A stretch of DNA of 58,469 bases from Dokdonella sp. Lineage in GTDB: Bacteria; Pseudomonadota; Gammaproteobacteria; Xanthomonadales; Rhodanobacteraceae. The notes beneath the pieces were generated by a model, which was not told the DNA's origin, did no database searches, and saw only the letters and a program-made list of their open reading frames with translations. Position numbers and translations under genes: made by a program. Positions within the stretch are counted from its first letter, which is position 1. Every line of letters starts with the position of its first letter. Below, piece after piece: positions 26,961-57,736 of this stretch. The stretch spans positions 1 through 58,469 of the forward strand of contig NZ_JAHCAQ010000020.1 of NCBI RefSeq assembly GCF_019634845.1, in the 5' to 3' direction.

Positions 26961-27250
26961 GAAACCCCCAAGAATGGACTGGATCCAGCGATGCGCCGCG
27001 TCGATTCCCATCGCGGCGTCATCGTTCCCCTTTGGCAACGATCCCCCGTTGCAGCGCAGCTGGCGCACGGGATCGCCGGGCAGACTAGCACGCCTTTTGT
27101 TCAATGCTCGTTGGTAGCGGCGCCGAGGTATTGTGCGACGCAGCAGTCGGTGCCCGCGTCCGCTGCGGCGCCAGACCCTCCACCGCAGCCAGGCCCTGAT
27201 CAAACCGCGCACCGGGCGCTGCGACCATTGCGGAATCGACCGCGCCCGCG

Positions 27251-28165
27251 CTAGAAGATCTCGGCCACGCAGCAGCGCAGGCTGCCGCCCGCTTTCTCGA
27301 TCTCGTCGAGCGGCACCGCGCCGACCGCAAAACCGTGGCGCGCGAGCGCCAGGTATTGCGCGGGCGCGAGCGCCGCGGCGGCGCGCTGGCTCATCCACAC
27401 ACGCTGCGGCGCGAGCGCGATCGCATTGGCCGCGAATGCAGCCTTCTGCGCCTCGTCGAGCAACACCGCGCCATTGCCGTACACGGCCGCGATCGCCTCG
27501 GCGTCGGCCGGATCGGCAAAGCCGCTGGGCGCGAGCAGCGCGGCGCGGCCGGCCAGCACCGCGAGCACGACATTGGTGTGGTATTCGCCGCGGGCCAGCG
27601 GGAAGGCAAAGCTCAGGCGCAGGCCGAAGGCCGCGTGCATCGCGCGGGCGCCAGCCAGGTCGCAGCGCTCGGACAGGCCGCAATAGCCGATGCCGCGCGC
27701 ACGGTCGATGACAAGCGCGCCAGTCAGCTCGGCCACGCAGTCGCGCTGCGACAGGTCCAGTTCGGCATAGTCGAGCACGTCGCGGAACCAGCGCCGGATG
27801 TCATCGCGCCGCGCCTCGCGCTGGCGCACCGCATGCCGCATGCGACCGATGATGAGGCGATCCCGCACGGTCGCAAACACGTTGTTGGGGAACATGCCGT
27901 CGGGGCAATCGGGCCTGCCGGCGAACAGCGCGACCGGCACGTCGGGACCGAGCGCAAGCGCCAGCGCGTCGTGCTGCGCGCGCGCGCGGGCCAGGTCGAT
28001 CGTCGTGTCGCTGGCCATGTAGGCGTTGTCCTGCCCCGACTCGATCGCAAGCTCGGTGCTGGCAGGCGCCACGAGGAAGGCGCCGCGCGCGGTTGCGGCA
28101 TGGCGTGGCGGGTACTTTTGCGGCGAATACTCGGCGCGGAAATCGCTGGCGGAGGTGACGATCAT
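27251..28165 (-). CDS. ctlX: CtlX/DDAH-like arginine deiminase-superfamily hydrolase
   Basis: A 304-residue protein of the pentein (amidinotransferase) fold. DGMFPNNVFAT provides the substrate Asn/Asp loop, GIGYCGLSERCD and GEYHTNVVLAVL the catalytic Glu/His region, and GGSLRCCVAEIF carries the nucleophilic Cys near the C-terminus. This matches citrulline-utilisation hydrolase CtlX and dimethylarginine dimethylaminohydrolase relatives. The substrate (citrulline or methylated arginine) is inferred. The ATG overlaps the stop of tag as ATGA, so the two are cotranslated. Confidence 0.78.
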   Translation of the reverse strand: MIVTSASDFRAEYSPQKYPPRHAATARGAFLVAPASTELAIESGQDNAYMASDTTIDLARARAQHDALALALGPDVPVALFAGRPDCPDGMFPNNVFATVRDRLIIGRMRHAVRQREARRDDIRRWFRDVLDYAELDLSQRDCVAELTGALVIDRARGIGYCGLSERCDLAGARAMHAAFGLRLSFAFPLARGEYHTNVVLAVLAGRAALLAPSGFADPADAEAIAAVYGNGAVLLDEAQKAAFAANAIALAPQRVWMSQRAAAALAPAQYLALARHGFAVGAVPLDEIEKAGGSLRCCVAEIF

Positions 28166-42266: not shown

Positions 42267-43784
42267 TCAACCTCCCTCGAATCCATTCATGAACACGCGA
42301 TCGGTATTCCGGCCACGCGAGAGCAGTTCCAGATAAACCTCCAGGTTGGTGTAGCCGGCCACGCCCAGAAGCGGCAGCGACAGCGTGGAACCGTTGTTGT
42401 CGGCGGCGTTCGGGTTGAGGCCGTGGGCCAGCTCGAAGGCATCGGGCATACCGTCCTCGTCGCTGTCGGACGGTGGTACGGGCGGATTGGCCGGAGGGAA
42501 ATCAAGGTTCAGGGCGTCGTTGGCGACGGGCTGCTCGTGCGGAACGTTCGGAATCGTGCCGCCGAGCGCGGAAGCGGTGATGCGCCGATCCATCGGATCG
42601 TGCGGTCGGGCGCCCGCCGACGGTACGACGATAGACAGCAGGTTGGCCGTTGGGACATAGCCGATCGCCGGGAACGGGTGCCGCGTACTGCGCCGGGTCG
42701 CGCTGCCCATGTCGGTATTGCCGGTCGGCAGCGTCGCTGCAAAGTCGTTGCAGCAGTAGAACAGCGCGTAGTCCTGCAGGGAGGGATACCGGTCGACGCG
42801 GTTGTCGCTCACGTAGAGGCTGTTCTGGCTGTTGTGCAACATCGCGATCTCGACCATGCCGTAGGGAAACGCCGGGCGCACGTGGAACAGGTTGCCGACC
42901 ATGTTGTACTGCACCCGATAGGGCCCGTTGGCGGCATCGCCATCGACCCATTGCGCATAGGTGACGTAGTAGTACGGATCGAAGTAGTAGTTGTTGGAAA
43001 CCTCCAGCCGCAGCGGCACGCTCTGGCAGGCATCGATGAGGCGCGGCGGTATATCGTCCTGCGAGCTTGATTCGCAGTTGATCTCGGGCAGGCGGCCCAT
43101 GATGCGGTAGAACAGGTTGCGCACGAGGCTGATGCCGTCCTGCGGCCAGGCGGTGTTGGCATAATTGAGCAGGATGCCGCCGTAGATCGCGTGTCCGCCC
43201 TCGGTTTCGGCCAGGATCGAGTTCTGGATCGTGACCTCCGAGGCCCAGCTCAGCTGCACCGCCTCGTCGTTGGCGTTGGCCATGGAAACGTGGTCGATCA
43301 TCACGCGCTTGACGCCGTCCAGTCGCAATGCGTCGTCGTGCGGGCAATGCCCCGGCGTAACCTGGCAAGCCGGACGCAGGCGCAGGTGGCGCACGATGAG
43401 GTTGTCGCAGGATTCCCCGCCGTAGTGGACGCCGCAGGACAGGCCGCGCACGATCACCCCACCCGGTGAGGTCTGTCCCGCGATGGTGACGTTGCCCGAT
43501 CGCACTTGCACGGGACCGTCGATGACCCCGCTGACCTCGAACACGATCGTGCGTGCACCGGGCTGCCGCAGCGCCCAGCTGAGCGAACCGCGATTGCCCG
43601 AACCTTGCGTCCCTCCCGGATCGACCGCCAAGGTATCGACGATCAACACCTGCCCACCGCGTCCACCCGAGGCGACGGCGCCGAATCCCTCCGCCCCTGG
43701 GAAACTCGGCAAAGGCTGCGCCCCCAACGGCAAACCGCAAGACATCCCGCCCAGCAAACCCACCACCACAAACAAGGCGCTCAT
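42267..43784 (-). CDS. Exported pectate lyase-like (PL1-type beta-helix) protein with C-terminal VFMNGFE tag
   Basis: A 505-residue exported protein. After a signal peptide (MSALFVVVGLLGGMSCGLPLGA) it starts LPSFPGAEGFGAVASGGRGG, the usual start of bacterial pectate-lyase-like beta-helices, with NRGSLSWAL, TIVFEVSG, NVTIAGQTSPGG and the HLRLRP/DDALRLDG coils. A later DSDEDGMPDAFELAHGLNP is a calcium-binding thrombospondin-3-like motif. The last residues, DRVFMNGFEGG, match the shared tail. Catalytic Lys/Arg residues cannot be assigned with confidence, so the polysaccharide substrate is open. An alternative start lies at 43829. Confidence 0.82.
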   Translation of the reverse strand: MSALFVVVGLLGGMSCGLPLGAQPLPSFPGAEGFGAVASGGRGGQVLIVDTLAVDPGGTQGSGNRGSLSWALRQPGARTIVFEVSGVIDGPVQVRSGNVTIAGQTSPGGVIVRGLSCGVHYGGESCDNLIVRHLRLRPACQVTPGHCPHDDALRLDGVKRVMIDHVSMANANDEAVQLSWASEVTIQNSILAETEGGHAIYGGILLNYANTAWPQDGISLVRNLFYRIMGRLPEINCESSSQDDIPPRLIDACQSVPLRLEVSNNYYFDPYYYVTYAQWVDGDAANGPYRVQYNMVGNLFHVRPAFPYGMVEIAMLHNSQNSLYVSDNRVDRYPSLQDYALFYCCNDFAATLPTGNTDMGSATRRSTRHPFPAIGYVPTANLLSIVVPSAGARPHDPMDRRITASALGGTIPNVPHEQPVANDALNLDFPPANPPVPPSDSDEDGMPDAFELAHGLNPNAADNNGSTLSLPLLGVAGYTNLEVYLELLSRGRNTDRVFMNGFEGG

Positions 43785-44042
43785 GAACCGCACGGCATCG
43801 CTCCCAATCGTTCCGCGTGCACACCGCATCGCCCCTATCCAAGCGCAACTCGGCACCGGAAGGAGACAGGTCGATGTGATGGGCTTCACGAAAACCAGAT
43901 CGGGCAACGATGGGCCGCAGCTTTGCGCCGGAAGCCGCCTCAGGCCCGCGCCAGGCCGGCGTAGATCTCTTCCTCCCGCGCAGAGCGCCCTTGCCCCTCC
44001 TCGGGACTGTGGCACCTCCGCGCCGCTCCGGGCCGGGAGGAA

Positions 44043-46136
44043 TCACGACCCATCAAACCCGTCGGCGAACAGGGGTGCCTCGTTCACGTGGATTGGAATG
44101 GCGACAATGACTTCGTTGAACTGGCCAAGGCCATTGGTGATACGGAAGGTCACGCCATAGGTTCCTTCGCTGCCCAATGGAGGCGTGCCGGATAGGACGG
44201 CAGTATCCGGGTTCAGGCTCAATCCGGGTGGAAGGCCGGTGGCGGTGAAGATCACTGCGCCGCCCTGGCCGTTGGATTGCAGGGTGTAGTTTTCGTAAGG
44301 CACGCCGACATGGCCATCCGGCGGGTTCACGTCGTAAAGCACGGGTGCGGCGACGGGGGTTTCCAGGGCGCCGGCGTCCTGGATGCCGAAGGTGTTGGGC
44401 ACGGCGGGGATGTCGATGTTGCGGTTGCCGCGATCGCGGGTCGGGTCGCTTGCGGTGTAGGGCGCAAAATCGCGGCCTGCACCGCCGGCAAGGTAGTACT
44501 TGCCATTGTTCGCATCGGCGAACACCGGCGTGCCGACGATGTTCACCGGCAGGCCGCCCACGGTCACTGTGTTGATGCCGCTGAGATCGTTGACGACGCT
44601 GTAGCGCACCACATCGCCCAGGGTGCTTCCCAGCACCACACGCTTGCCGGGCTGATGCACGAGGCTGCGCTGGAGCGAGAAACTCCCCAAGGTTCCGTTA
44701 CTGCCAAACATGACGGCAGTGGCTCCGATGAGGTTGTCGGCAATGGTGACGGCGGCGAAGTGGCAGGTCGAACGGAAGTGGCAGCCATCAAACAACATGC
44801 CGGTGACGTCGTTGTGATCAAAGAGGGCGCCCTCCGACAGGAAATACGAAGAACCCGGAGTTATATCGTCGACAAACTGGAACAGCGTGGCACCGGCATT
44901 GCCCGTCAGGCGCGTGCCGCGCAGGAAAACGGAAAGATCGCCGCCATCGTCGTCGCGCGACGCGCGGATCGCGGCGCCGGGCTTGGCCTGGCTGCCGTCG
45001 TAGGCAAGGTTGTTGGCAATGAGGTTGCATTCGATCGTGCGCGAGCAGCGTTTGCGTCCTTCCTGTTCGGCAAAGTCGGAGGTGGCGGTGAAACGGCCTT
45101 CATCGCCCTCCACGTACAGGGCCACCGCACCGCCGCCCTGTCTGGCGGAGTTGTCCGCAACGATGCTGTCGTAGAGCGTTGCTTGCGCGGCCTTCTCCAG
45201 CGTCATGCCGCCGCCGAAGCGATCCGAGCTGTTGCCCGTGATGCGCGTGGGCATGGTGGGCGTGAGATTGCCCACGGCAAGGCGCGAGGTGTAGTAGATC
45301 ATGGCAAGACCGCCGCCCGGGCCGCTGGCGGTGTTGCCAAAGATTGCGGGCAGTGGGCCTGCCGCCAGTTTGAGGTCGCAATGCCGCCCGAGTACGCCGC
45401 CGCCATAGGCACCACCTGATGGTGGTGTGCTGCCGGTTTCCACCGCACCGCCTGCCACGTTCTGCCAGAACGTGGTGTACATGCCCTGCACCGTCACGAG
45501 TGCCTGAGAGCAGTAAAAACCTCCGCCGCCGTACGCGCCGCGGTTGTTGCTCATGACCACATTGTCAAGCAGGTACAGCGAACTGGTGGCTCCACCACTG
45601 CCATCGGGCAAGTTCGGGCCACGCACGCTGACAGCCCCGCCGTAGCCTGCGGAATTGCCGCTGAAAAGAACGTTCTGGATCACGATCAGATGCGGGCCCG
45701 CGGTGACATCCAGCGCTCCGCCGTAGCTTTCGTCATCGAGCAGTTCATCGCCATTGCGGAACTCCAGGTTCTCGAGACGAATATCCGTGGAGCCGCCATT
45801 GACATTGAGAATGCTTCGACGCGCGCCACCTGTACCGCTCAGCACCGGGCGCGTCCATGGAATGCCAACGCTGTCGCAGGGCTGCGCACCCACGAGCCGG
45901 ATGAACTTGTTGGATATGTCCAGATTTTCGTTGTAGGTGGCATTGCCTGAGATCAGGATGGTGGTGAAGTCGCCCGGCGACGACGACGCGGCATTGATGG
46001 CGGCTTGCACGGTCGAATGGGTGCAGCTGCCGATCGGTCCGACCGGACCGACGCGCAGGGTGAACTCGGCGCCGTGAAGTGCCGGAGTCGCTGCCAGAAA
46101 CAGCGGGGCAAGAAGACAGACAAGGCGGGAGAGCAT
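44043..46136 (-). CDS. Exported beta-helix (Pmp-like repeat) protein with Ig-like domain and C-terminal LFADGFD tag
   Basis: A 697-residue exported protein with signal peptide MLSRLVCLLAPLFLAATPALHG. SCTHSTVQAAINAA begins a right-handed parallel beta-helix with repeated GGA/GGG and NN turns (ESYGGALDV, NRGAYGGGGFYCS, SDRFGGGMTLEK, RQGGGAVALY) like chlamydial Pmp repeats. Around residues 600-690 is a putative Ig/He-PIG domain (ATGLPPGLSLNPDTAVLSGTP). The protein ends NEAPLFADGFDGS. It is paralogous to the beta-helix gene at 49159-50871. Probably exposed on or released from the cell surface. Confidence 0.8.
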   Translation of the reverse strand: MLSRLVCLLAPLFLAATPALHGAEFTLRVGPVGPIGSCTHSTVQAAINAASSSPGDFTTILISGNATYNENLDISNKFIRLVGAQPCDSVGIPWTRPVLSGTGGARRSILNVNGGSTDIRLENLEFRNGDELLDDESYGGALDVTAGPHLIVIQNVLFSGNSAGYGGAVSVRGPNLPDGSGGATSSLYLLDNVVMSNNRGAYGGGGFYCSQALVTVQGMYTTFWQNVAGGAVETGSTPPSGGAYGGGVLGRHCDLKLAAGPLPAIFGNTASGPGGGLAMIYYTSRLAVGNLTPTMPTRITGNSSDRFGGGMTLEKAAQATLYDSIVADNSARQGGGAVALYVEGDEGRFTATSDFAEQEGRKRCSRTIECNLIANNLAYDGSQAKPGAAIRASRDDDGGDLSVFLRGTRLTGNAGATLFQFVDDITPGSSYFLSEGALFDHNDVTGMLFDGCHFRSTCHFAAVTIADNLIGATAVMFGSNGTLGSFSLQRSLVHQPGKRVVLGSTLGDVVRYSVVNDLSGINTVTVGGLPVNIVGTPVFADANNGKYYLAGGAGRDFAPYTASDPTRDRGNRNIDIPAVPNTFGIQDAGALETPVAAPVLYDVNPPDGHVGVPYENYTLQSNGQGGAVIFTATGLPPGLSLNPDTAVLSGTPPLGSEGTYGVTFRITNGLGQFNEVIVAIPIHVNEAPLFADGFDGS

Positions 46137-46352
46137 GGCGCGGCCCGTGGCAATGACCAGCGAAAGACTGGCCTTCGCTGGAATTGACGAGTTTTCGTGC
46201 GCAGACCCGACGTGGTGTTGTGCATGAGCCAGCTCGGCCCAGACTGAGTGGCGGCTGCACCGGCAACTTTGCCGGTTTTGATCGTCAAGGCCGTGTGTGG
46301 CGGAAGCGCTGGTCCAGCGCCGGAAACGTCAAATGGCGTCCGTATCCGTTGT

Positions 46353-49172
46353 TCAGCGTTGCATGTTGAAGCGTTGACGCAGGCTGGCAAGCTTGAGCCG
46401 TTGCGGATGGTTGGCTGGCAGTGCGCTTGCCAGCACCGACTCGGCTTGTTCCATGTCTGCGTTGGCACCAGAGCGGTCGCCAGCGGCAAGACGCAGCGTG
46501 GCGCGTGCCAGCAACGCCCCGCCGGCAGCGAAATGCTGCAACTCGCCCAGCTTCTCGCAGTGCGCGATGGCGCGATCAAGCAGCACCATCGCCTCGCCTT
46601 CGCGCCCACGAGCTTGCAACCACAAAGCAACGCTGGCGGCGAATGGCGAAACCTCGTTGCATCGGAGTTTGTCGAATTGCTCCAACGCGACTGCCGTCAG
46701 ACGTTCGGCACGATCCCCGTCGCCCTTCGCGATGGCGATCCGTGCTTCAAGAAAATCCACGCGCCCGGGCATGAGCGCGTGCGCACCCTCCGGGGTTTTC
46801 ATCCAGCCACGGTAGGAATCCACCCACTGCTGCGCCAACGCCGGATCGGCGCGATCCAGCGCGACGCGTGCCAACAACAATTCCGGCTCGCGCCCAACCG
46901 GCGATTCGGGTGCGACACGGCGACTAATGCCCAGTGCCGTTTTGGCGGCGCCTTCCGCACCGCCCAGATCGCCCAGATTACGCAGGACATTGCTGAGGTT
47001 GATCCAGGTGTTGAGTCCGCTGCCGGCCTGATCGACGCCGCTAGCTCGGTCGGCGTCGAGCTTTTCGCGTAGCAGGGGCAACGCTTCGGCGAACCGACCA
47101 CGCTTGATCAGCAGATTGGCGAGATTGTTCTTGGATTGCCCCAATGCAGGATGGTTTTTGCCGTACACCCGCTCAAGGATGGACAGGCTCTCGCGCGACA
47201 CCGTTTCGGATTCCTGCAATTGCGCGCTATGGGTCAGGCACAGCGACAGTGCCGACAAGGCGCCGGCCGTGGCGGCGTGTTCGTTGCCCCAGGCTTGTCG
47301 CGCCATTGCCACCGATTGACGCAGGTGAGGCTCGCCACGCGCGCAGTCGTCGCTACGCCACAACGCCACGCCAAAGCTATTGTGGATCTCGGCGAGCAGC
47401 GATTTCGGTGTGTCGTGACGTGGTTCGACCAGAGCCAGAGCCTGCTCGAAGTCCGCGAGCGCCGGCTCGATGCGGCCGACGAAGGCAAGTGCTTCGCCGC
47501 GAGCGCGCAGGGTTTCCAGCCGACCCAGACCGTCAGGGTCGTGTTGCTGCTGCAAGGCCAGGGCTGCATCGAAGTCGGCGAACGCACGCTCAGGATTTCC
47601 CAGGCGCGACTGCAACTCGCCGCGCCGGCTCAAGGCGCTCGCATACGCTATGTCGTTGCGCGGCGCTTGGCTCTCCAGCAGGGTCACGGCTTCATCCTGC
47701 AGTTCCAGCGCCTGTTTTTCGCGCTGCAGGCCAAGGTAGATGCGGCCGAGCAAGGTCAGCATGTCGGCGCGGATTTCAGGCGATTTCGTACTTGCCGCCA
47801 GCGCCGTGCGGCGACCACTTTCGAGCAAGGTTGCGGTGTCTGGAATCTGGTCGGCCGGCAGGCCTGCACCGCCGGTCTCGAACACTTCAACTACGAAATC
47901 GCGTACCGCCTTGGTTCGCGCCAGCGCGGCGCGTGCACGCTGGGCCTCATTCATGGCGCGGGCGCTTTCAAGCTGCGCCACGCGCGTCTGCCACAGCGCC
48001 ATGCCGAAGCCGATGAGTGTTGTGAGCAGCAGCAACGCGGTGAGGCTGACGCCGCCCCGATGCCGCGCCACGAACTTGCGCGCGCGATACCAGTTTGATG
48101 GCGGATGCGCGCGCAGCGGACGCTGGGCGCGGAAGTTCTCGATGTCTTCCAGCAGTTCGGCAGCATCGCGGTAGCGTCGTGCAGGCTCCTCTTCGCAGCA
48201 TCGCTCGAACACCCAGCGCAGTTCGTGCGAAACGTCGAGGGGCCAGGCTGGCCAGGAGTCACCGGGTTTGCTGGGCGGGGATTGCCCGGCGATGAGTTCA
48301 CGCAGGAGTACGCCAAGCGCAAACACGTCGCTTGCGGGCGTGGGGGTGTCGCCGCTGCGCTGCTCCGGCGCGCCATAGCCCGGCGTGAGCATCAATGCAT
48401 CGGTGCGGTTCGCGGCGTCCTCATCGATGAGGCGCGCGATGCCGAAATCCAGAACTTTCACCTGACCATCCCCATCCACCATCACGTTGGAAGGCTTGAG
48501 GTCCCGATGAACGATCAACTGACGGTGCGCGGCGGCAGCCACCTCGCACAGTTGCGCAAAAAGCTCGAGGCGCACGGCACGACTCGCATTGCGCTGTGCG
48601 CACCAATGATCCAGCGGCTGTCCATTGACGTATTCCATCGCGAGGTACGGCAGGCCGAACTCACCCAGCCCGGCATCGATCAGTCGCGCGACGCCTGCGT
48701 GGCTGAAGCGCGCCAGGATGTCGCGTTCGCGCCGGAAGCGGCGCAGGTCGGCTGCATCCAGGATCGCCTCGCGCAGCAGTTTCACCGCCGCCTGTTGCAC
48801 GAATTCGCCATCGTCGCGTTCACCCAGGTACACCGCACCCTGACCGCCGCTGCCAAGGAGACGCACGAGCTTGAACGACCCGCAATGACTGCCGATGAGA
48901 TCGGGCAGGGCCGCAAAGTCGTCGGCCAGGAGATCACCCAGCTTTTGCAGCGGCGCAGCTTCGAAGGGATCGGTTGAGCTTTCATCCTGCGCCAGCATCA
49001 GCGTCAGCTCCATCCGCATCGCTTCATCCGGGACATGCTGTTCAATGAATGCAAGGCGCTCGCCTTCCGGCAGATCAACACACTCATCGAACAGCATCCG
49101 CAATTGGGCGTAGTTCGCAGCGTGGCCTGTGTGTTGACGTGTGGAAAAGGCATCACCGCTATTCGAAGCCAT
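46353..49172 (-). CDS. Membrane Ser/Thr protein kinase with TPR domain
   Basis: A 939-residue Hanks-type kinase. The kinase domain (residues about 97-350) has the loop LLGSGGQGAVYLG, Lys131 (AAVKLL), HRDLKPSNVMVD with Asp224, DFGIARL and the activation segment TPGYGAPEQ, so it looks active. One transmembrane helix (about 376-395) separates it from a long periplasmic TPR array (AEIHNSFGVALWRSDD, NNLANLLIKRGRFAEALPLL). The TPR part may sense an envelope signal. The start at 49172 has a GGAG site and overlaps the beta-helix stop by 14 nt. It is the likely partner and activator of the ECF sigma factor encoded at 50951-51460. Confidence 0.9.
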   Translation of the reverse strand: MASNSGDAFSTRQHTGHAANYAQLRMLFDECVDLPEGERLAFIEQHVPDEAMRMELTLMLAQDESSTDPFEAAPLQKLGDLLADDFAALPDLIGSHCGSFKLVRLLGSGGQGAVYLGERDDGEFVQQAAVKLLREAILDAADLRRFRRERDILARFSHAGVARLIDAGLGEFGLPYLAMEYVNGQPLDHWCAQRNASRAVRLELFAQLCEVAAAAHRQLIVHRDLKPSNVMVDGDGQVKVLDFGIARLIDEDAANRTDALMLTPGYGAPEQRSGDTPTPASDVFALGVLLRELIAGQSPPSKPGDSWPAWPLDVSHELRWVFERCCEEEPARRYRDAAELLEDIENFRAQRPLRAHPPSNWYRARKFVARHRGGVSLTALLLLTTLIGFGMALWQTRVAQLESARAMNEAQRARAALARTKAVRDFVVEVFETGGAGLPADQIPDTATLLESGRRTALAASTKSPEIRADMLTLLGRIYLGLQREKQALELQDEAVTLLESQAPRNDIAYASALSRRGELQSRLGNPERAFADFDAALALQQQHDPDGLGRLETLRARGEALAFVGRIEPALADFEQALALVEPRHDTPKSLLAEIHNSFGVALWRSDDCARGEPHLRQSVAMARQAWGNEHAATAGALSALSLCLTHSAQLQESETVSRESLSILERVYGKNHPALGQSKNNLANLLIKRGRFAEALPLLREKLDADRASGVDQAGSGLNTWINLSNVLRNLGDLGGAEGAAKTALGISRRVAPESPVGREPELLLARVALDRADPALAQQWVDSYRGWMKTPEGAHALMPGRVDFLEARIAIAKGDGDRAERLTAVALEQFDKLRCNEVSPFAASVALWLQARGREGEAMVLLDRAIAHCEKLGELQHFAAGGALLARATLRLAAGDRSGANADMEQAESVLASALPANHPQRLKLASLRQRFNMQR

Positions 49173-50871
49173 TGGCAAAAATCTCCGAAGGAGGCAGCTG
49201 CAGCTCGAACGCACCCAGATCGTACGGTCCATCCAAGTCGGGAACGTCGGGCAAGTCTATGCCGCGTGGCTGGGCGCTGGCATCGGTTTCCCGTTCCACG
49301 ATGTCCGCGCAGGCATCCACGGCGGGGCTGATGGATTGCAGGGTGAAGTCGCCTGCGCCGGGATTGACAAAGGCCGGGTCGCCCACGCGCACCTCGCCGC
49401 TCATGGGAAACACCTCATGCGCAAGCACGCAGGCCGCCGAGACGGTCGAGGCTGCATCCTTGAACAGTACCGAATAACCGGGCTGATGGAGAATGGAATA
49501 AAGCAGGCTGGCGCTGCTGCCCCCATCCATCCGCATCAGTGAACTGCCGCCAATGCTGGCAGCCAGGGTGAGGCCGTTGGCGAAGAAATGCGAGCCGGAA
49601 CCCAGGAAGACCGTACCAAGATTGCCTCGGTCATACGAATCTGCAATCAGCACCGAGTCCAGTTCCACCCGCTCCGCCGCATTGCCATACACGGCCGCGC
49701 CGACCTGTGCGGCATTGCCTTTGGCCTGGGTTCCTAGCAGCAGCACCTTGGCACCGAATGTCGCGCAGATGCCGCCGCCCTGCGTGGCATCGTTTTCGTC
49801 GAGCCGCGAGCAGGCTTCCGTCGGCGAGCAGACGGGCGCGGGGAGATCACCGAACATCGTGATGGCCGCTCCGCTGTCGGCGTAGATGCCTCCACCACAG
49901 CCGACCGTGTTGCCATCGCTGTCGGCGCGATTGCCGTGCACCTTCGTCGCGAACAGGTACACCTGTGCCGTACCGCCATAGGCCGCGATGCCGCCGCCAT
50001 CGGCCGACGCCTGATTGTCGGCGATGGTGTAACCCGGATCCACGGACAGAAATCCATCGTTGTCCACGAAAACGCCGCCGCCCACAACGGCCTGATTGCG
50101 TTCCAGCCCTGGCGCCGGCGGCAAGACGGTGCCCGTGCTCACGTTCAGCTGTGCCTGTCCCGAACCGGCGACGTAGAGTCCACCGCCGGAATTGGCCTGG
50201 TTGTCGGCAATCGCGACCGCATTGCTACCGAACAGCGCCTGGGCGTTGCCGCCAACGAACACGCCGCCGCCTGCGCCAGTCGGCGCACGGTTCTGATCGA
50301 TGACGCTGATGCGATTCGCGCTCGCGCCCACGCGCAACAGCGCCGGATGGGTCGAGTCGTGCCCGAACACGGAAATTCCGCCGCCCTGGGCGGCCTGATT
50401 CTGGCGGACTCGCACCCCCGCCAACTCGACCTGCACATGGCCCTGCACCCGCATTCCGCCACCCGTGGAGTCGTGGCTGCCGCCGAAGGCGAGCACCAGA
50501 TTGCTGAGCTTCACCACGCGGGGCGGGTCGGTGGAGAAGTTCTGTACCACCAGGACCGGCAATCCGCCGTTGCCCGCACCCAGGATTTCCGTGGGTGGCG
50601 CGTTCGGCGCCGGGGCGCTGCAATTGGCAAAGCCGCCTTCGATGGAAAGGCTCACGCCATCGGCCACCAAGGCCTGTCCGGTGTAGCTGGCATTGTTCGC
50701 CACGATGATGGTGTGGATAGCCGTGTCGCCCAATGCCTTGGCGGCATCGATCGCGGCCTGGATGGTGGTGTGGGTACAGGCGGCATCGTTGCCGACGCTG
50801 AACGCGTGGGCGGCGGCGCTGGCGAAAAGGCAGATGGCGCAGGCGAAAGCGCGCCGGGTGGAGAAGAACAT
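49159..50871 (-). CDS. Exported beta-helix (Pmp-like repeat) protein with C-terminal EIFANGFE tag
   Basis: A 570-residue exported protein with signal peptide MFFSTRRAFACAICLFASAAAHA. ACTHTTIQAAIDAAKALG begins a right-handed beta-helix with GGG turns (DSTGGGMRVQG, AAQGGGISVFG, GAGGGVFVGG, ATQGGGICATFG). It ends PPSEIFANGFE exactly at the C-terminus. It shares the CTH-x-T-x-QAAI-AA start and an ILHQPGYSVLF segment with the 697-residue protein, so they are paralogues. A strong AGGAGG site lies 8 nt before the ATG. Between sigma factor and kinase in one unit. Confidence 0.82.
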   Translation of the reverse strand: MFFSTRRAFACAICLFASAAAHAFSVGNDAACTHTTIQAAIDAAKALGDTAIHTIIVANNASYTGQALVADGVSLSIEGGFANCSAPAPNAPPTEILGAGNGGLPVLVVQNFSTDPPRVVKLSNLVLAFGGSHDSTGGGMRVQGHVQVELAGVRVRQNQAAQGGGISVFGHDSTHPALLRVGASANRISVIDQNRAPTGAGGGVFVGGNAQALFGSNAVAIADNQANSGGGLYVAGSGQAQLNVSTGTVLPPAPGLERNQAVVGGGVFVDNDGFLSVDPGYTIADNQASADGGGIAAYGGTAQVYLFATKVHGNRADSDGNTVGCGGGIYADSGAAITMFGDLPAPVCSPTEACSRLDENDATQGGGICATFGAKVLLLGTQAKGNAAQVGAAVYGNAAERVELDSVLIADSYDRGNLGTVFLGSGSHFFANGLTLAASIGGSSLMRMDGGSSASLLYSILHQPGYSVLFKDAASTVSAACVLAHEVFPMSGEVRVGDPAFVNPGAGDFTLQSISPAVDACADIVERETDASAQPRGIDLPDVPDLDGPYDLGAFELQLPPSEIFANGFE

Positions 50872-50950
50872 GCTTGCAACCTCCTGGATGGGGTTGCAGG
50901 GTTTGACGAGGAACCGTGAGCAGACCCGACATGGGCGCGGAAAGATGGCG

Positions 50951-51460
50951 TCAGTCGCTCTCCAGTTCCCGCTTCAGCCACGCTTTCGCCGCACGCCAGT
51001 CGCGCTGCACGGTGCGATCGGAAAGTGACAACTGCCGTGCGATATCAACGAGTTCCATTCCCGCAAAATAGTGCAACTCGACCACGCGCGCCGCGCGCGG
51101 ATCGACTTTCGCCAGCGCAGCGAGGGCCTCGTCCAGATCGAGCGTGCGCTGGGTTTCGCGCGCCAGCGCCTCATCCATCGCCGATTCGAATTCGTCGCGC
51201 TGCCAATCCCCGCCATGTTTCGGGCGGGCGCGCTTGCGAGCCTCGTCCACCAGCAGGTTGCGCATCGCCCGCGCCGCATAGGCATGGAAATCGCGCGGCG
51301 CGGCGTGGCCATGCTGACGCAGGTTCAGATACGTCTCATGCACCAAGGCAGTGGTGTTGAGCGTGGGCGAGGCCCCGTTGCGTCGACGCTCGCGGTGGGC
51401 GAGCGTGCGCAGCTGCTCATAGAGGCTGCGGTACAGGGCTTGGTCGGAAAGTTCATCCAT
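50951..51460 (-). CDS. ECF43-like RNA polymerase sigma factor (TIGR02999-type)
   Basis: A 169-residue ECF sigma factor. The sigma-2 region has ASPTLNTTALVHETYLNLRQ and FHAYAARAMRNLLVDEARKR; sigma-4 has RVVELHYFAGMELVDIARQL and a helix-turn-helix SDRTVQRDWRAAKAWL. Where ordinary ECF sigmas have an acidic DAEDLVQE helix, this one has NTTALVHE with Thr36, Thr37 and Thr43. That is typical of ECF43 factors that need phosphorylation by a Ser/Thr kinase. No anti-sigma gene is nearby, but a kinase gene is in the same unit. Start at 51460, MDELSDQALYRSL. Confidence 0.88.
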   Translation of the reverse strand: MDELSDQALYRSLYEQLRTLAHRERRRNGASPTLNTTALVHETYLNLRQHGHAAPRDFHAYAARAMRNLLVDEARKRARPKHGGDWQRDEFESAMDEALARETQRTLDLDEALAALAKVDPRAARVVELHYFAGMELVDIARQLSLSDRTVQRDWRAAKAWLKRELESD

Positions 51461-51574
51461 GGCCGCAGTATCGCCGCAAACCACGTCTGCAGGCGAAACA
51501 TCGGCCTCGCCGCCAACCGTCGTGCGCTGACCCGCGACTGACACGCCCACGATCTCACCGCAGGAGCGGGTGCG

Positions 51575-51844
51575 TTAGCCGATGGCGAACACCGACAGCG
51601 CCGCGGCGAGCAGCCAGATCGCGTCGACGGGCTCGCCGCGCCGCAAGGCGACGACGCCGAGGCAGATCGCGCCGGCGACCGCGACCGCGGCCCAGACGAG
51701 TTTCGAGACGGGGCCGGGCGGATGGCCGGCAACGGCGGAATTCAGGGACGGGCTCCAACGGCGGATGGGCCAATGAAGCGTGTGCCATCGATTCGGGTCG
51801 GTTGATGCGCGAACGGATACGACTTTGATCAAAGCGCCGCGCAT
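51575..51844 (-). pseudogene. cstA: 5' remnant of cstA (carbon starvation protein)
   Basis: The last 45 codons of this 89-codon frame (KLVWAAVAVAGAICLGVVAL, RRGEPVDAIWLLAAALSVF) match the first transmembrane helix and loop of CstA peptide/pyruvate transporters (L-V-W...G...LG-ALxRGExxNALW). CstA is about 700 residues; here the frame stops after FAIG and nothing further matches, so only the 5' end remains. The N-terminal 44 codons before it are not conserved. Confidence 0.6.
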
Positions 51845-51926
51845 GCGCTGGCGGCAAGGAGGCCGTCCATGGCCGCGTTGTTATTCCGTGGGGTGGCGCA
51901 GGAGTTTCTTGCGGCCGTGGCCGCGA

Positions 51927-53525
51927 TCAATCGCCGCCGCCGCCGCCGAACGCGTCGGCGAAGATGCTGTCGGTGGCCTTGAGGTGGATGAGCGTGGCGT
52001 CGAAGTCGGTGCCCGAATACAGGCGCGTGCCGACCACGGCGATCACTTCCTCGCCGGTACCGTCCACGCCGCCGATCCATTGGCCGGTATGGCCCATCCA
52101 CATGCCGAACGGGCGCGACCAGCGCGTCACGCCGGCACCGCCGGCGTAGTCCACGTCCAGCGCCGCGTGCACGCGGTTGCCGTCGGCGCTGTATTGCTCC
52201 ATGCGCGTGATTACGTTGGTCGGCGGCATGCTGCCGTTGTTCTTCGAGCGCATCGCGACGACCAGGTCGCGGTTCTGCGCGCGCTCGGCAAGCGCGACGG
52301 GTTGCGAATCGGGTTTGTAGAATTCGTCGATGTTGTGTTCGACCATGCAGCCGTATGGGCCGCGGTTCGAGTTGCCCTTGCAGAAGTTCGCGTCGAAGCC
52401 ACCGTTGCTGTTGACGCGGCCCATGATCATCGGCCTGAGATTGGCGTCGTCCGTTTCCGACCAGCCGGCGAAGGCGACCTTGCCGTTGCGCAGCGGCGCC
52501 AGCGCGGTGATGGCATCCTTCTTGTAGCCGGTGTTGTCGTTCTCGTAGTAGAAGGCGCGCCAGTCCCAGTCCGGGGAGACGACGCCAGTGGCTGGCGCGA
52601 GGCCGAGAATGAAGCCGTCGTGATCGCCGGCCACATCGCGCTTCATCTGTCCGCCTACGTACAGGTGCGGGGTGCCGGCGTAGCCGTAGGGCGTGACGGC
52701 CAGCGCGTTCACCTTCACTTCCGCGCCGCTGGCCGGCGCCCAGGCGGGCAGGCCAAAGTAGTAGCCATCGCCGTTGAACTGAGGGATGAGCGCGCCGCTG
52801 CCGGCGCTGATGCGCGCGACGCCTACTTCCTGGCCGCGCGTGGTGTTCATGATGCGCGCGGCGACGAACAGGCCGTAGCGGGCGTCGTAGATCAGGCGCT
52901 GGCCATAGGCGGCGGTGCGCGGACCGCTCGCGCTGACGCCCCAGGTGAGCAAGCCGGCGAAGCCCGTGAAACAGCTGTTGCCGGTCGGCGTGCTCAGGTC
53001 GATGCAGGCCACGCGCGTGGCCGCGCCCGCAGACATGTTGCTGAGGATGAAGGCATAAGGCCTGCTGACGATCACGTCGACGATTTCGCCCTGCGCCCCG
53101 CCGTAGATCCAGCCGTTGGTGCCGAACGTGGTGTCGGTGATGCCGCCGAGGTCCACGCGCGTGATCCACACGCGCCACGCATCGCCAGCAGTGTTTTTCT
53201 GCTTGCCGACGACGTAGTAGCCCTTGTGCACATTGGTCGTGACCGGCGGCGGGCCGGGCAGGGTGCCCACGCCGTCCCACGGGAACACGCCCACGCCGTC
53301 CTCGGTGTTGGACCAGCCGTCCTGATTCGGCGCCCACAGCGCTCGCATGCCAGTGGCGCTGAAGTTCGTATCAAGCGTGAGGTCGCTCGGCGTCGGCGAG
53401 CCGTCGGGCGCGAGGTTCAGTTGCAACGGCTGCGTGGCGTCGGTGGCGCGCTTGGCGAAGTCGTCGGCGGCGTGGGCGCTGCCGATGGCGAGGGCGGCGA
53501 AGGCGAAGGCGAAGGTTTTGAGCAT
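51927..53525 (-). CDS. Exported delta-60-repeat-like protein with C-terminal IFADAF tag (tandem copy A)
   Basis: A 532-residue exported protein with signal peptide MLKTFAFAFAALAIGSAHA. It has repeated units of the form D-x-x-F-G-x-G-G/W followed by value strings (TDTTFGTNGWIYGG, NGKVAFAGWSETDD, DANFCKGN), the pattern of delta-60/DUF5122 beta-propeller-like repeats. The C-terminus is TDSIFADAFGGGGGD. It is a tandem paralogue of the next gene (same APDGS.PSDL start of the mature part, same ..GYKKDAITAL segment). Function unknown; probably a surface or secreted beta-propeller. Confidence 0.82.
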   Translation of the reverse strand: MLKTFAFAFAALAIGSAHAADDFAKRATDATQPLQLNLAPDGSPTPSDLTLDTNFSATGMRALWAPNQDGWSNTEDGVGVFPWDGVGTLPGPPPVTTNVHKGYYVVGKQKNTAGDAWRVWITRVDLGGITDTTFGTNGWIYGGAQGEIVDVIVSRPYAFILSNMSAGAATRVACIDLSTPTGNSCFTGFAGLLTWGVSASGPRTAAYGQRLIYDARYGLFVAARIMNTTRGQEVGVARISAGSGALIPQFNGDGYYFGLPAWAPASGAEVKVNALAVTPYGYAGTPHLYVGGQMKRDVAGDHDGFILGLAPATGVVSPDWDWRAFYYENDNTGYKKDAITALAPLRNGKVAFAGWSETDDANLRPMIMGRVNSNGGFDANFCKGNSNRGPYGCMVEHNIDEFYKPDSQPVALAERAQNRDLVVAMRSKNNGSMPPTNVITRMEQYSADGNRVHAALDVDYAGGAGVTRWSRPFGMWMGHTGQWIGGVDGTGEEVIAVVGTRLYSGTDFDATLIHLKATDSIFADAFGGGGGD

Positions 53526-53621
53526 GGCGTGAGTTCTCCGTTCAGGGGCCGTGGCGCCTGAGCGCCACGGTCGGAAGAGAAAAGCGCAAGTCGGCGCGCC
53601 GACCTGACATCGCGCGTCGGC

Positions 53622-55274
53622 TCAGTCGCCGTGGGCACCGCCGAAGGTGTCGGCAAAAATGCTGTCGTTTTCGAGCAGGTGACTCAGAGTCACGTCGAAG
53701 TTGCGCAGGATGTCGACGATGGCCCACTTGCGTGTGCCGGCCACGACGAGGTTGCGCTTGGCGTTGGGGATGGTGTCGAACACCATCGGCGTGGTGTCTA
53801 GCGCGATGCCGGCCGGGCGTGACCACCAGGCTTGCCCGCTCGATGCGGGGAAGTCGATGACTTGCTGCGCGTGCAGCACATTGCCGCTCGCGCCGTACTG
53901 AAGCACAAATTGTGCGGGATGGTAATCGCCGGAGGTCTGGTTGCGTTTCAGCGCGACCACCAGATCGCCATTGTCTGGACGCTCGAGGATCGCCGTCGGC
54001 TCATCGACTGGGCTGCCGGTCGCATCGTTGCGGCGACACACGCCCTTGTTGTCGCAAAAGCCAAGATCCTTGCTGCCATCCGTATTGAGCCGTCCGAGGA
54101 TCATGCGCTGGTCGGGCGCAATGAGGCCATCGGACCAGCCGGCGAGTGCGAGCTTGCCGTTGCGCTGCACGGTGATCGCGGTGACTGCATCCTTGCGGTA
54201 GCCGGGATTGTCCAGCTCGTAGGTGATGTACTGCCAGGAACCGAAGGCGGTGATGCCATTGCCGGTGGTCGGATCGAGTGCGAGCACATAGCCGTTGTAG
54301 TCGACGCCATCGCTGCTGATTTTCACGTTGCCGGCCAGGTACAGCCGCGAGCCGCCCGGAGCCGTTGCCGGCGCCAATGCCATGCTGAACACATTGACAT
54401 CGCTGCCGGTCTGGGCGCCAGCCGGCGGCATGTAGACGCGTTGGCCATTGGGTCCGAACGCAGTCACGCGTTCTCCGGTGGTGGCGTTGAGCTTGACGAC
54501 CGCGATGCGCCAGCCGTTGGCACTGTCGGCAAAGCCGGCTACGTACAGATAGGGCGGCGTCGAGCCGCTGCCCGGCTCGAAGATCACGCGTTGCGCGACA
54601 TCGCGGTTGGAGCCGCCGAGGTTGAACGCGATGCTGGTGAGACTGCCGACGCCGTCGCAGGGATTGCCGGTGGTGATGTTGCGGCAGCGCACGGCAAAGT
54701 CTTCGGCGTTGCTGCCCAGAGCCCACGAGCCGACGAAATACATGCTGCCGGTCGCCGCGTCGAAAGCGGCATCGTTGATCGAGGTGATCGGCGGTGTCGT
54801 GATCGCCTGCCAGCCGCCGGCGCCGAACGTGGTGTCCAGCGTGCCATCGAGTTTGACCTTGCCGATCAGCGCGTCGTAGAGGCCGGTGTCGTAATGCTTG
54901 CGCCTGCCCGCGACGTAGTAGCCGCGCTCTTTCACGTAGAAGATCGGAAAGGTGCCACCCGTGACGTCCAGGGTCTTGAACGGAAACACGCGCAAGCCGC
55001 CTTGTTCGTAGTCGTTGGTGGTGTCCGGCGAGAACGCGGCCATGCCGCTGTTGCCGAAGGCCGGATTGAAGTTGAGGTCGCTCGGCAGCACGCTGCCGTC
55101 TGGCGCCAGCGGTTCGTCATGGTGCGTGGTGGCGTCGATCGCTTCCTTCCAGTCGGTAGCGCAGGCGCTGCCAGCAGCGCCTGCGAGCAGGGCGAGCGAC
55201 ACGCATGCGCGGCTCATGAGTGCGCGCGCGTGGCGGTTGGATCGGGACGGACGGGACATCGTTGCTTGTGGCAT
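53622..55274 (-). CDS. Exported delta-60-repeat-like protein with C-terminal IFADTF tag (tandem copy B)
   Basis: A 550-residue exported protein with a signal peptide ending near VSLALLAGAAGSACA. Repeat units include LDTTFGAGGWQAI, NGKLALAGWSDGLI, DLGFCDNKG. It shares EPLAPDGSVLPSDLNFNPAF and NPGYRKDAVTAITV with copy A and ends NDSIFADTFGGAHGD. The ATG at 55274 has a GAGG site 6 nt upstream; ATGs at 55259 and 55217 are alternatives. Copy A follows after 96 nt, so both are probably one transcript. Confidence 0.8.
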   Translation of the reverse strand: MPQATMSRPSRSNRHARALMSRACVSLALLAGAAGSACATDWKEAIDATTHHDEPLAPDGSVLPSDLNFNPAFGNSGMAAFSPDTTNDYEQGGLRVFPFKTLDVTGGTFPIFYVKERGYYVAGRRKHYDTGLYDALIGKVKLDGTLDTTFGAGGWQAITTPPITSINDAAFDAATGSMYFVGSWALGSNAEDFAVRCRNITTGNPCDGVGSLTSIAFNLGGSNRDVAQRVIFEPGSGSTPPYLYVAGFADSANGWRIAVVKLNATTGERVTAFGPNGQRVYMPPAGAQTGSDVNVFSMALAPATAPGGSRLYLAGNVKISSDGVDYNGYVLALDPTTGNGITAFGSWQYITYELDNPGYRKDAVTAITVQRNGKLALAGWSDGLIAPDQRMILGRLNTDGSKDLGFCDNKGVCRRNDATGSPVDEPTAILERPDNGDLVVALKRNQTSGDYHPAQFVLQYGASGNVLHAQQVIDFPASSGQAWWSRPAGIALDTTPMVFDTIPNAKRNLVVAGTRKWAIVDILRNFDVTLSHLLENDSIFADTFGGAHGD

Positions 55275-55888
55275 TTCGGCCTCACATCAGTGGTTTGCGG
55301 CGGTGCGACGCGCGCCCGGAGGCGCGTTGCGTCGTTGCTGCGGAGAAAAGCGCAAAGCAGCGCCGAAACCAGACATGGCAGGTGCAAATTGATCGTCAGC
55401 GGGCGAAAACCGCGCTGCCGCGGCGCGGCAGGCCCGCACGCCGGTAACCGATGCATGCTCGGGACGTTGCGCCCAGGTCATGAGGCGACGGTGTCGGGCG
55501 CTGCCGCGGCGGTTCCGCCGGCCACGCCGGGATTGGGCGTGGGGAGTGCGCGCGGGCGAGCGCCGGTTCCGCGGCCGCTCCTGGCTGCGCTGTCCTCGAC
55601 GGCCGAAACCGCACATCGAGGTTTTTTCCCGGAGCCGGAGAACCGTCCTCGTTTTTTTCGCCCGCAACCGCTGACCGCGCAAGGAATTTCTGGCCCGCCG
55701 GCTACGACGGCGCGTCTGCGTCACCAGAGTTCGCAAATGGCGCGGGGGTCCATGCGAAAGAGAAGAGGGCGAACGAGGGTGTAGGGCAGGTTGACGTTTC
55801 CCCGATTCATGGCGGCTTTTCCCTGCTTTTTGCGTACCCACTTCACGTGGGATGCTGTTCCCGCCGATTCGACGAAGGGAGTTCTGCC
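55275..55888. other. Divergent intergenic region between delta-60-like genes
   Basis: This 614-bp region lies between the leftward pair and the rightward 615-residue gene and must hold both promoters. I see T-rich patches (55620-55660) but no gene with family features and no clear promoter hexamers. Confidence 0.5.
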
Positions 55889-57736
55889 ATGAAATACCTG
55901 TTGCCTGCCCATCCTGGGCATCGTGCGCTTGGCGGCGTTGGCTCGCTGGCGCTGTTGGTCCTGACCAGCCTGAGCCTGGCCACCACCGCCGTGCTTGCCG
56001 ACGACTCTCCGCTGTCGGACAGCCATGTCGCCCCGTCCGCATTCACGCCCACAACCATCGTCATCGGTGGTCCCGAGGGCGCCGACCTGGTGCGCAGCCC
56101 TGGCGCCTCCGACGAGACCCGCCACACGGCGTGGTATTCCGAGTCGATGGAGGAGACGGAAGCCAAGCGCTGGGTCGATGACCAAATCAAACGCATCGAA
56201 ACCGGCAAGGCTAAGGAAACCGACGAAACCGACACAGCGGTCAAGGCCGGCAACCTGGGCAAACGCGAGGGTGATCTGGATCCCACCATCAACGTCGCCC
56301 ACCATCCCGGCGAGCCGGGCATCCACCGCGTGGCGATCGACGGTGGCAATACCGCGCATGATCGAGCGGTCGGCGTCGCGCAGCGCAGAGACGGCAAGAT
56401 CTACCTGGTTGGTCAGTCGGGTGGCCCCGGCGCAAACGCACGCATTGCCATCGCCCGCCTGACCTCGCATGGCCAGCGCGACCCCGACTTTGGGGCCAAC
56501 GGCGTCCAGATCGTCACGGTGGTCAATCCACAACTCACCCTGGTCAAGGCCATTGGCGTGATGCGCGACAACTACGAACGCTTCTACATCGTGGCCCAGG
56601 ACAGGGAACTCACCAATAACCACGACTTCGCCCTGATCTGCCTGCGCACGCCGACAGTCGGTGGCAACCAGCCCTTCGAGGTCTGTCCAGGGTTCGGTTC
56701 CACAGCGGGCAACATCATCCGCTACTACAATTTCGCGGGCGCGTCGGGCTGCGATTCCAACCACGACGTTCCCCAGGACATGTTTCTGGACGACAGCGCG
56801 CCCTCTTCGCGCCGGTTCTATCTGGCCGGTAGCGCGGAACGTCAGTTCAACAACTGCGGCGACACGGACTTTGCCGTGCTCCGCGTGGACATGAACGGCG
56901 ACCTGGACACCACCTTCAACACGACCGGACGACTCATGCGGGGTATCGCACCGGTGGTCGGCGGTGGGAACTGGGTCGCGTCCGCGTACGCCGTTGCCCG
57001 GCGCGCGGATGGCAAGGTGATCGTGGGGGGCGGCGTCGGAGCCGGCGCCAATCTGCGAGCGGTGGCTGCGCAGTTTACCAGCGCAGGAGCCATAGACTCC
57101 GGCTTCTGCGCGGCCAGCGTCAGCACTTGCGAATCGCCCGCAACGCATCGAGGCGGCATTCGCGCCTGGAGCAACGACGATGCGGCATCGAGGGTCAGGG
57201 CGTTGGCCCCGACCTTTGGCGGCGGCCTGTACGTCGCGCGCTGGCGGGATCTCGGCACAAATGCCACGCTGGGACGGTTGACCCGCATGGACGCCACCGG
57301 CGGATGCGTGTCCTATTGCAATGAAGCCACCATGTACCCGGCTGCCGGCACCCATACCATCCCCGAATCGATGGTCTTCCATGCCGGCCCGGCGGGCACG
57401 GATGGCCAGGTCGTCGTCGCCAACTATAACTACCCCGATGGCGCCGCCGAGCAATCGAAGTTCGTCGTGTACCGGTTCGACGCCAATACCAGCAGCAACA
57501 CGCTATCGGCCGATACGCAATTCTCGACCGGTCCAATCCCTCAGCGCCAGGACATCACGTTCCCCGGCGCCAATTCTGCCAGTTTCGAGCGCAACGCGCG
57601 GCCTTCGATGATCACACTCGACCAGCAAGGGCGCTACCTGATCGCCGGGTTTGCCGCTTTCAGCGCCACCGACCGGGACTTCGGGTTCGCGCGACTGCAG
57701 CGCGATGTAATCTTCATCGACGGATTCAATCGCTGA
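55889..57736 (+). CDS. Exported delta-60-repeat-like protein with C-terminal IFIDGF tag
   Basis: A 615-residue exported protein with a long signal peptide (VGSLALLVLTSLSLATTAVLA). A charged segment at residues about 70-115 (ETEAKRWVDDQIKR, ETGKAKETDET) is unusual. Repeats such as DPDFGANGVQIV, DLDTTFNTTGRLM and DGKVIVGGGVG match the delta-60/DUF5122 pattern. The C-terminus is RDVIFIDGFNR. It is divergent from the two paralogues at 51927-55274 and longer. An AAGGGA site lies 9 nt before the ATG. The start of the mature part differs from the tandem pair, so it is a more distant relative. Confidence 0.8.
   Translation: MKYLLPAHPGHRALGGVGSLALLVLTSLSLATTAVLADDSPLSDSHVAPSAFTPTTIVIGGPEGADLVRSPGASDETRHTAWYSESMEETEAKRWVDDQIKRIETGKAKETDETDTAVKAGNLGKREGDLDPTINVAHHPGEPGIHRVAIDGGNTAHDRAVGVAQRRDGKIYLVGQSGGPGANARIAIARLTSHGQRDPDFGANGVQIVTVVNPQLTLVKAIGVMRDNYERFYIVAQDRELTNNHDFALICLRTPTVGGNQPFEVCPGFGSTAGNIIRYYNFAGASGCDSNHDVPQDMFLDDSAPSSRRFYLAGSAERQFNNCGDTDFAVLRVDMNGDLDTTFNTTGRLMRGIAPVVGGGNWVASAYAVARRADGKVIVGGGVGAGANLRAVAAQFTSAGAIDSGFCAASVSTCESPATHRGGIRAWSNDDAASRVRALAPTFGGGLYVARWRDLGTNATLGRLTRMDATGGCVSYCNEATMYPAAGTHTIPESMVFHAGPAGTDGQVVVANYNYPDGAAEQSKFVVYRFDANTSSNTLSADTQFSTGPIPQRQDITFPGANSASFERNARPSMITLDQQGRYLIAGFAAFSATDRDFGFARLQRDVIFIDGFNR

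Follow-up and report, generated by a model that had tools for sequence, protein, structure and literature searches.

Why should exported proteins of different folds, encoded close together, end in nearly the same few residues? The question is raised by a 58,469-nucleotide contig of Dokdonella sp. (NZ_JAHCAQ010000020.1; Gammaproteobacteria, Xanthomonadales), called the window below, for which a preliminary description listed six exported proteins sharing a short C-terminal tag and proposed a sorting, processing or secretion signal. Translation of the window's open reading frames (ORFs) reproduced all six C-termini exactly. The explanation we favour, giving it a little less than an even chance, is that the tag is a short linear sorting tag on Sec- or Tat-exported proteins, most likely marking substrates of the canonical type II secretion system (T2SS; gspC-D-E-F) in the periplasm, probably through the PDZ domain of GspC. 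The six tags in the window are as follows.

42270..42302, minus strand: tag DRVFMNGFEGG, C-terminus of P0001, a pectate-lyase-like exported protein (ORF 42267-44015; weak domain matches)
44046..44078, minus strand: tag APLFADGFDGS, C-terminus of P0002, a Pmp-like exported protein with a He_PIG domain (ORF 44043-46136)
49162..49188, minus strand: tag SEIFANGFE, C-terminus of P0003, a Pmp/choice-of-anchor-Q-like exported protein (ORF 49159-50871; choice_anch_Q at 18.6 bits, under the cut-off of 25)
51930..51971, minus strand: variant tag DSIFADAFGGGGGD of P0004, a delta-60-like exported protein (ORF 51927-53525; TIGR02608 under cut-off)
53625..53666, minus strand: variant tag DSIFADTFGGAHGD of P0005, a delta-60/DUF5122 exported protein (ORF 53622-55274; domain matches)
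57704..57733, plus strand: variant tag DVIFIDGFNR of P0006, a delta-60/DUF5122 exported protein (ORF 55847-57736; TIGR02608 above cut-off)

The proteins fall into three fold groups, as had been claimed: pectate-lyase-like (P0001), Pmp-like (P0002 and P0003) and delta-60/DUF5122-like (P0004-P0006), with several of the underlying domain matches scoring under curated cut-offs. Signal peptides had been assigned to all six, and by inspection each has an export-like N-terminal stretch, for P0001, P0005 and P0006 only with internal Met starts. The tail sequences themselves read as described, with neither a hydrophobic helix nor an Arg-rich tail of the PEP-CTERM or GlyGly-CTERM type, and no long beta domain. 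An AlphaFold model of P0003 has per-residue confidence (pLDDT) below 50 over residues 387-570, its C-terminal half, and is too poor to bear on the tag.

Is the tag confined to this locus? A tighter DNA pattern matches three of the six tails, the other three being variants (ADAF, ADTF, DGFN), and has four copies in the window compared with none in 100 shuffles of it. Throughout the window's genome (3.26 Mb in 27 contigs, 90% complete), the DNA pattern hydrophobic residue-F-x-[DN]-[GA]-F-[DE] occurs 77 times; its control, the same pattern read backwards, occurs once. Seventy-six copies have a distinct context, and 57 of these end 0-6 residues ahead of a stop codon. The remaining 19 lie further inside: three are 16-20 residues ahead of the stop, three immediately follow a signal peptide, and the others occur between domains or in the interior of larger proteins. 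The limit of 0-7 residues suggested by the six tails thus does not hold for every copy; with 19 of 76 deeper in proteins, the motif appears to be a linear one that is C-terminal in most cases. One of the internal copies is in the window, 210 residues ahead of the stop of its ORF.

23913..23939, minus strand: internal copy DRIFGDGFD in a 1467-residue S8-protease (subtilase) ORF, 23280-27683, flanked by weak Ig-like and MAM-like matches

In L047, L059 and L064 the tag, by inspection, immediately follows the signal peptide and occupies the N-terminus of the mature protein, not the C-terminus. Judged by position only, pairs of pattern matches 27-36 bases apart on the same strand may be tandem double tags (G400:C1:871659/871695 and 1176939/1176966; G462:C3:9229/9262).

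The 57 C-terminal tails share the nine-residue consensus D-x-[IL]-F-x-[DN]-G-F-[DE], with column counts (n = 57) of D 50; x; I/L/V 49/6/2; F 57; x; D/N 33/24; G 56; F 57; D/E 41/16, most of it imposed by the search pattern, which left the leading D free. A looser C-terminal rule was matched by 55 of 469 real protein ends, from stretches mostly picked for tags, compared with 1 of 2063 artificially shortened ends. The 57 tags are encoded by 56 distinct 27-nt versions specifying 51 distinct 9-mers, and this near-uniqueness of the DNA points to selection on the protein rather than on the DNA. When 11 choice-of-anchor-Q-like carriers sharing 17-30% identity with P0003 are aligned, all of them rows chosen for carrying the tag, the only invariant residues are one Gly, the domain's D, G, A and E, and the tag's F, G and F. 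With their last 25 residues removed, the 57 carriers form 37 sequence clusters, the largest having 11 and 7 members. Tails alike by chance, by common descent, or through a DNA repeat copied into gene ends have next to no probability as an explanation: although two of the six window proteins are homologous (P0002 and P0003 cluster together by sequence) and three belong to one repeat family, the copy, shuffle, cluster and DNA-version counts refute it.

Are the carriers exported? A crude, home-made signal-peptide rule flagged 36 of the 57 C-terminal carriers and 14 of the 19 internal ones, compared with 65 of 311 other coding ORFs; it left 21 C-terminal carriers unflagged, and a looser rule accepted 41 of the 57. 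As far as this reaches, the motif is not equally frequent on cytosolic proteins and, by sequence comparison, its carriers do not all come from one family. Enrichment for signal peptides across 37 unrelated clusters lends indirect support to the sorting, processing or secretion signal proposed earlier. When 29 carriers outside the window were scanned (20 with Pfam and 10 with NCBIfam, one of these also with Pfam), their matches included degradative families of kinds known among T2SS cargo (pectate lyase, S8, M12B, M14, M28 and M23 peptidases, GH44 and an ExeM/NucH-like nuclease) as well as glucose dehydrogenase-like proteins, kelch, NHL and delta-60 propellers, and DUF1501. Five of the 20 carriers had no Pfam match, and no named C-terminal sorting (CTERM) model matched among the 16 proteins scanned with NCBIfam.

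How widely is the tag distributed? Among 369 sampled genomes of the class just two stand out, that of the window (77 copies) and one of the same family (37); all the others have 0-9 copies, and reversed controls likewise 0-9. Within the order, tag counts in 200 genomes are two-humped. Tens of copies occur in most genomes of families f183-f186, f189 and f192, and also in part of f190, four genera of f1 and one genus of f2; elsewhere counts are low. A wider pattern, in which the two positions before the second Phe are freed, makes many genomes of f190 genus g293 positive too, and the strict pattern matches in 21 of 56 low-count genomes. Of 31 strict matches read, at 30 loci, 24 end 0-7 residues before the stop and seven lie 30-360 residues from it. 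Genomes were compared by a tag score, the sum of two overlapping pattern counts minus their reversed controls, in which one tag may count twice; at a score of at least 10, 104 of the 200 genomes are tag-positive. For a 68-genome panel the labels, 37 tag-positive and 31 tag-negative, were set by hand, and one genome labelled negative (G413) has no strict match yet a tag score of 11.

Which secretion gene accompanies the tag? GspD scores above cut-off in 66 of the 68 panel genomes and is of two kinds by match class, one of which, canonical GspD, is found in 36 of the 37 genomes labelled tag-positive and in none of the 31 labelled tag-negative. In a tree of 40 GspD sequences, including one PilQ-like outlier, a branch of 3.09 changes per column with support of 100/99 splits the kinds, with 25 rows Xps-like and 13 canonical; the labels Xps-like and, below, Xcs-like are our own assignments, set without comparison to a named Xanthomonas sequence. 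A canonical-GspD profile matches 206 of the 369 genomes of the class at E <=1e-120, 203 of them outside the order, which identifies this second kind of GspD as that of the canonical gammaproteobacterial T2SS, with the proviso that Xcs-like sequences also pass this bar. The Xps-like system is widespread in the order and does not track the tag, and nine f2 genomes combine background tag counts with a second system of Xcs-like type (450-571 bits).

Across the 200 genomes of the order, 90 of 101 with canonical GspD are tag-positive compared with 14 of 99 without it (p 1.4e-28, relatedness ignored), canonical GspD having been assigned by judgement from incomplete contig-end matches in eight genomes (G482, G492, G517, G531, G541, G478, G416 and G556), two of which would qualify by the numeric threshold as well. 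When only genomes of 95% completeness or more, in no more than 200 contigs, are counted, the fractions are 45/49 and 4/76. The 14 tag-positive genomes without canonical GspD comprise seven in f188 and seven in fragmented or incomplete assemblies elsewhere (G412, G423, G487, G546, G532, G542 and G552). Family by family, genomes with and without canonical GspD are tag-positive in 5/5 and 0/29 cases in f1, in 1/1 and 0/34 in f2, and in 82/89 and 7/8 in families other than f1, f2 and f188. In f189, otherwise tag-rich, G384 (100% complete, two contigs) has no GspD match and background tag counts. Independent support from these contrasts consists of one joint loss or gain of tag and GspD in f1, a second such event in f2, and the case of G384 in f189, with none from f188.

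What in the canonical system could read such a tag? In the window's genome the canonical locus runs gspC-gspD-gspE-gspF and is followed by ftsE. Of 20 further canonical loci, 19 have gspC-D-E and 13 have gspF and ftsE too, some of the stretches being short. No relatives of the pseudopilins of the window genome's Xps-like system were found in the canonical-locus stretches; genes of this kind are presumably located elsewhere. Each of the 21 GspC proteins aligned from canonical loci reaches across the C-terminal PDZ region. The Pfam PDZ model matches L177, L224 and L230 above its cut-off; its matches in L217, L221 and L225 are under it, and the L197 sequence ends ahead of the region. AlphaFold models the PDZ region of the window genome's GspC with fair confidence (block means 70-93), and the PDB entries that match the model best are the PDZ domains of EpsC (2i4s) and PulC (5hj1).

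Precedent for such a reader comes from T2SS cargo that depends on the GspC PDZ domain (VesB with EpsC, PelI with OutC). As described in a passage of PMC12369372, the PDZ domain of EpsC is required for secretion of VesB. These cargos resemble the tagged proteins in being folded exported enzymes, served by a PDZ-type GspC, with recognition information in one part of the cargo; according to the same source, however, that part is an Ig or Fn3 fold or loop, whereas here it would be a nine-residue linear motif on dozens of proteins. In XpsC, a single helix is described where EpsC and OutC have the PDZ domain (PMC11981180). According to the literature, T2SS substrates have no sequence in common (PMC10128026), a universal linear signal for T2SS secretion does not exist (PMC12369372), and conserved signals for transport across the outer membrane have yet to be identified (PMC11981180).

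In the pathway we envisage, a signal peptide, as the sequences support, would export each protein to the periplasm, where the tag, since its position varies, would be exposed on a flexible tail or linker. Co-distribution and precedent suggest that the tag would then dock with the canonical T2SS, the PDZ domain of GspC being a possible site, after which we assume passage through GspD and either release or surface retention. We infer recognition by the canonical T2SS; the GspC PDZ domain as the reader is our guess. A stronger version, in which D-x-I-F-x-[DN]-G-F-[DE] is a transplantable nine-residue linear T2SS signal read by the GspC PDZ domain and a co-resident, PDZ-less Xps-like T2SS takes untagged cargo, seems to us unlikely.

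A number of observations weigh against recognition of the tag by the canonical T2SS. Every one of the 13 canonical rows of the GspD tree is from a tag-positive genome, in a tree built without the 11 genomes that have canonical GspD and a low tag score (four in f188, seven in f190 g293), and the 13-row clade has only 86/93 support, with a long-branch warning from the tree program. The second system of tag-negative G425 is a long-branch neighbour of that clade and has a PDZ-type GspC in a genome without tags. Family f188 fails to follow, with 2/6 genomes tag-positive where canonical GspD is present and 7/28 where it is not. The independent contrasts are few (f1, f2 and one f189 genome), and shared ancestry could lie behind the link between tag and GspD. 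G427 (97% complete) has no canonical GspD but 11 strict matches, of which the three read (L107 and two in L125) are C-terminal. Since canonical-like GspD occurs across the class alongside tag counts of 0-9, the tag is no general requirement of T2SS. Physical clustering of tags with gspCDEF was considered and rejected, as 425 kb over 22 gspCDEF loci hold seven tags, about the seven predicted from the density in the window's genome; clustering is seen only at a few f1 and f189 loci. The canonical-PDZ profile had no match in seven Xps-like stretches from six genomes or at the second system of G404, but the HR profile found no GspC there either, so the Xps-like lack of PDZ is soft and partly literature-based. 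Internal and N-terminal copies are ill-suited to classical PDZ binding of a free C-terminus. The candidate partner families profiled number three (GspD, rhombosortase and the extracytoplasmic-function (ECF) sigma family). Lastly, other traits co-vary with the tag: choice-of-anchor-Q copy number is mostly higher in tag-rich genomes, and at least four ECF sigma genes are present in 31 of the 37 tag-positive panel genomes (5-36 each) compared with 5 of the 31 tag-negative ones, so that several deep-lineage traits travel together.

The ECF co-variation favours a different periplasmic or surface role for the tag, involving a chaperone, an HtrA-type PDZ protease or ECF sigma/Ser-Thr kinase signalling, with the T2SS link a result of shared ancestry or lifestyle. 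ECF sigma and kinase genes also adjoin tagged genes, in the window as follows and at several other loci.

50951..51550, minus strand: ECF sigma factor (PF07638), upstream of the tagged gene 49159-50871; recurs beside tagged genes
46353..49232, minus strand: Ser/Thr kinase with TPR repeats, overlapping the end of the tagged gene 49159-50871; the true start is probably a later Met

Such PF07638 and Ser/Thr kinase-TPR genes recur by tagged genes and, in some genomes, by gspCDEF (window 46353-51550; L177, L217, L218, L230 and L234). Genomes with few targets were read for a dedicated processing gene next to a lone tag, the setting in which sortases usually reveal themselves; the recurrent neighbours were again these genes. 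The small number of independent contrasts and the absence of a T2SS link in f188 would fit such a role as well. Over the same 68 genomes, however, ECF number tracks the tag less well than canonical GspD does: of the six tag-positive genomes with fewer than four ECF genes, five have canonical GspD, and the five tag-negative genomes with at least four ECF genes show none. We regard this role as improbable.

The main rival to T2SS recognition is a surface-anchoring or processing tag, where the canonical T2SS would carry the proteins across the outer membrane by other features and some enzyme or receptor would hold, cut or modify them at the surface through the tag (compare rhombosortase with GlyGly-CTERM); we think it rather unlikely. 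It draws support from proteins with the choice-of-anchor-Q domain, which is named for standing ahead of different anchors. In tag-rich genomes this domain is followed by the tag and the protein end within 13-24 residues (L148, L149, L150, L157, L162, L172, L174 and others), L162 and L174 having variant tags; in G465 just two residues follow it. In tag-poor G434, of family f188, the choice-of-anchor-Q protein L166 has at the tag's place a tail that looks IPTL-CTERM-like, possibly a swap of sorting systems. Many other choice-of-anchor-Q matches have long further domains after the motif and are uninformative on tail behaviour. Arg replaces the tag's Gly in the variant tags IFNDRFE (L146, in G401) and IFGSRFD (L167); G401 belongs to genus g293, which seemed tag-poor by the first pattern, and its variant means that this Gly is not universal.

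Does the tag resemble a known sorting system? Among the matches listed in searches of open-licence PubMed Central (PMC) papers on sorting signals and T2SS none described it, and tag-variant letter strings gave, among the matches listed, chance strings in unrelated papers only. Type IX secretion likewise places a C-terminal address on many unrelated cargos, in the form of a long beta domain, whereas the tag has nine residues and no such domain. Like the PEP-CTERM and IPTL-CTERM signals of exosortases, the tag is a C-terminal element behind choice-of-anchor domains; unlike the PEP-CTERM motif, which is followed by a helix and an Arg-rich tail, it has 0-6 trailing residues and leaves no room for either. 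GlyGly-CTERM is similar in being a short C-terminal element on otherwise unrelated exported proteins, many of them hydrolases, in co-occurring with T2SS and in being swapped for other tails in homologues. It differs in its tripartite build of Gly-rich motif, membrane helix and basic cluster; the 57 tails end 0-6 residues past the motif and are helix-free, and other copies of the tag stand at internal positions or right after signal peptides. A tagged relative of ExeM/NucH nucleases (L074:468-3437, minus strand) matches the NCBIfam model exonuc_ExeM-GG, a name that may denote a GlyGly-tailed form, in which case the tag may replace GlyGly-CTERM in this protein.

The GlyGly-CTERM comparison cuts both ways for an anchoring or processing tag. 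In its favour, the species with GlyGly-CTERM, for which TIGR03501 is named, are described as generally having T2SS too (PMC3237569), GlyGly-CTERM is stated still to require a second secretion signal (PMC13393428), and canonical T2SS exists elsewhere without the tag. Against it, neither a membrane helix nor a basic tail accompanies the tag, and copies behind a signal peptide or between domains misfit a C-terminal cut-and-attach reaction. Rhombosortase, the one known partner of this kind that we profiled, was rejected as partner of the tag: TIGR03902 scores above cut-off in 3 of the 68 panel genomes (G413, G165 and G417), none of them among the 37 labelled tag-positive.

If the canonical T2SS does recognise the tag, the finding bears on how T2SS chooses its cargo, which is unsolved: with a tag on dozens of cargos, often in genomes that have another T2SS whose occurrence does not follow the tag, that question becomes directly testable. 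Were surface retention its function instead, the tag would still define an unannotated sorting system, one that would put a label on numerous hypothetical exported proteins in roughly half the genomes sampled from the order. The tag could also serve as a rule for genome annotation.

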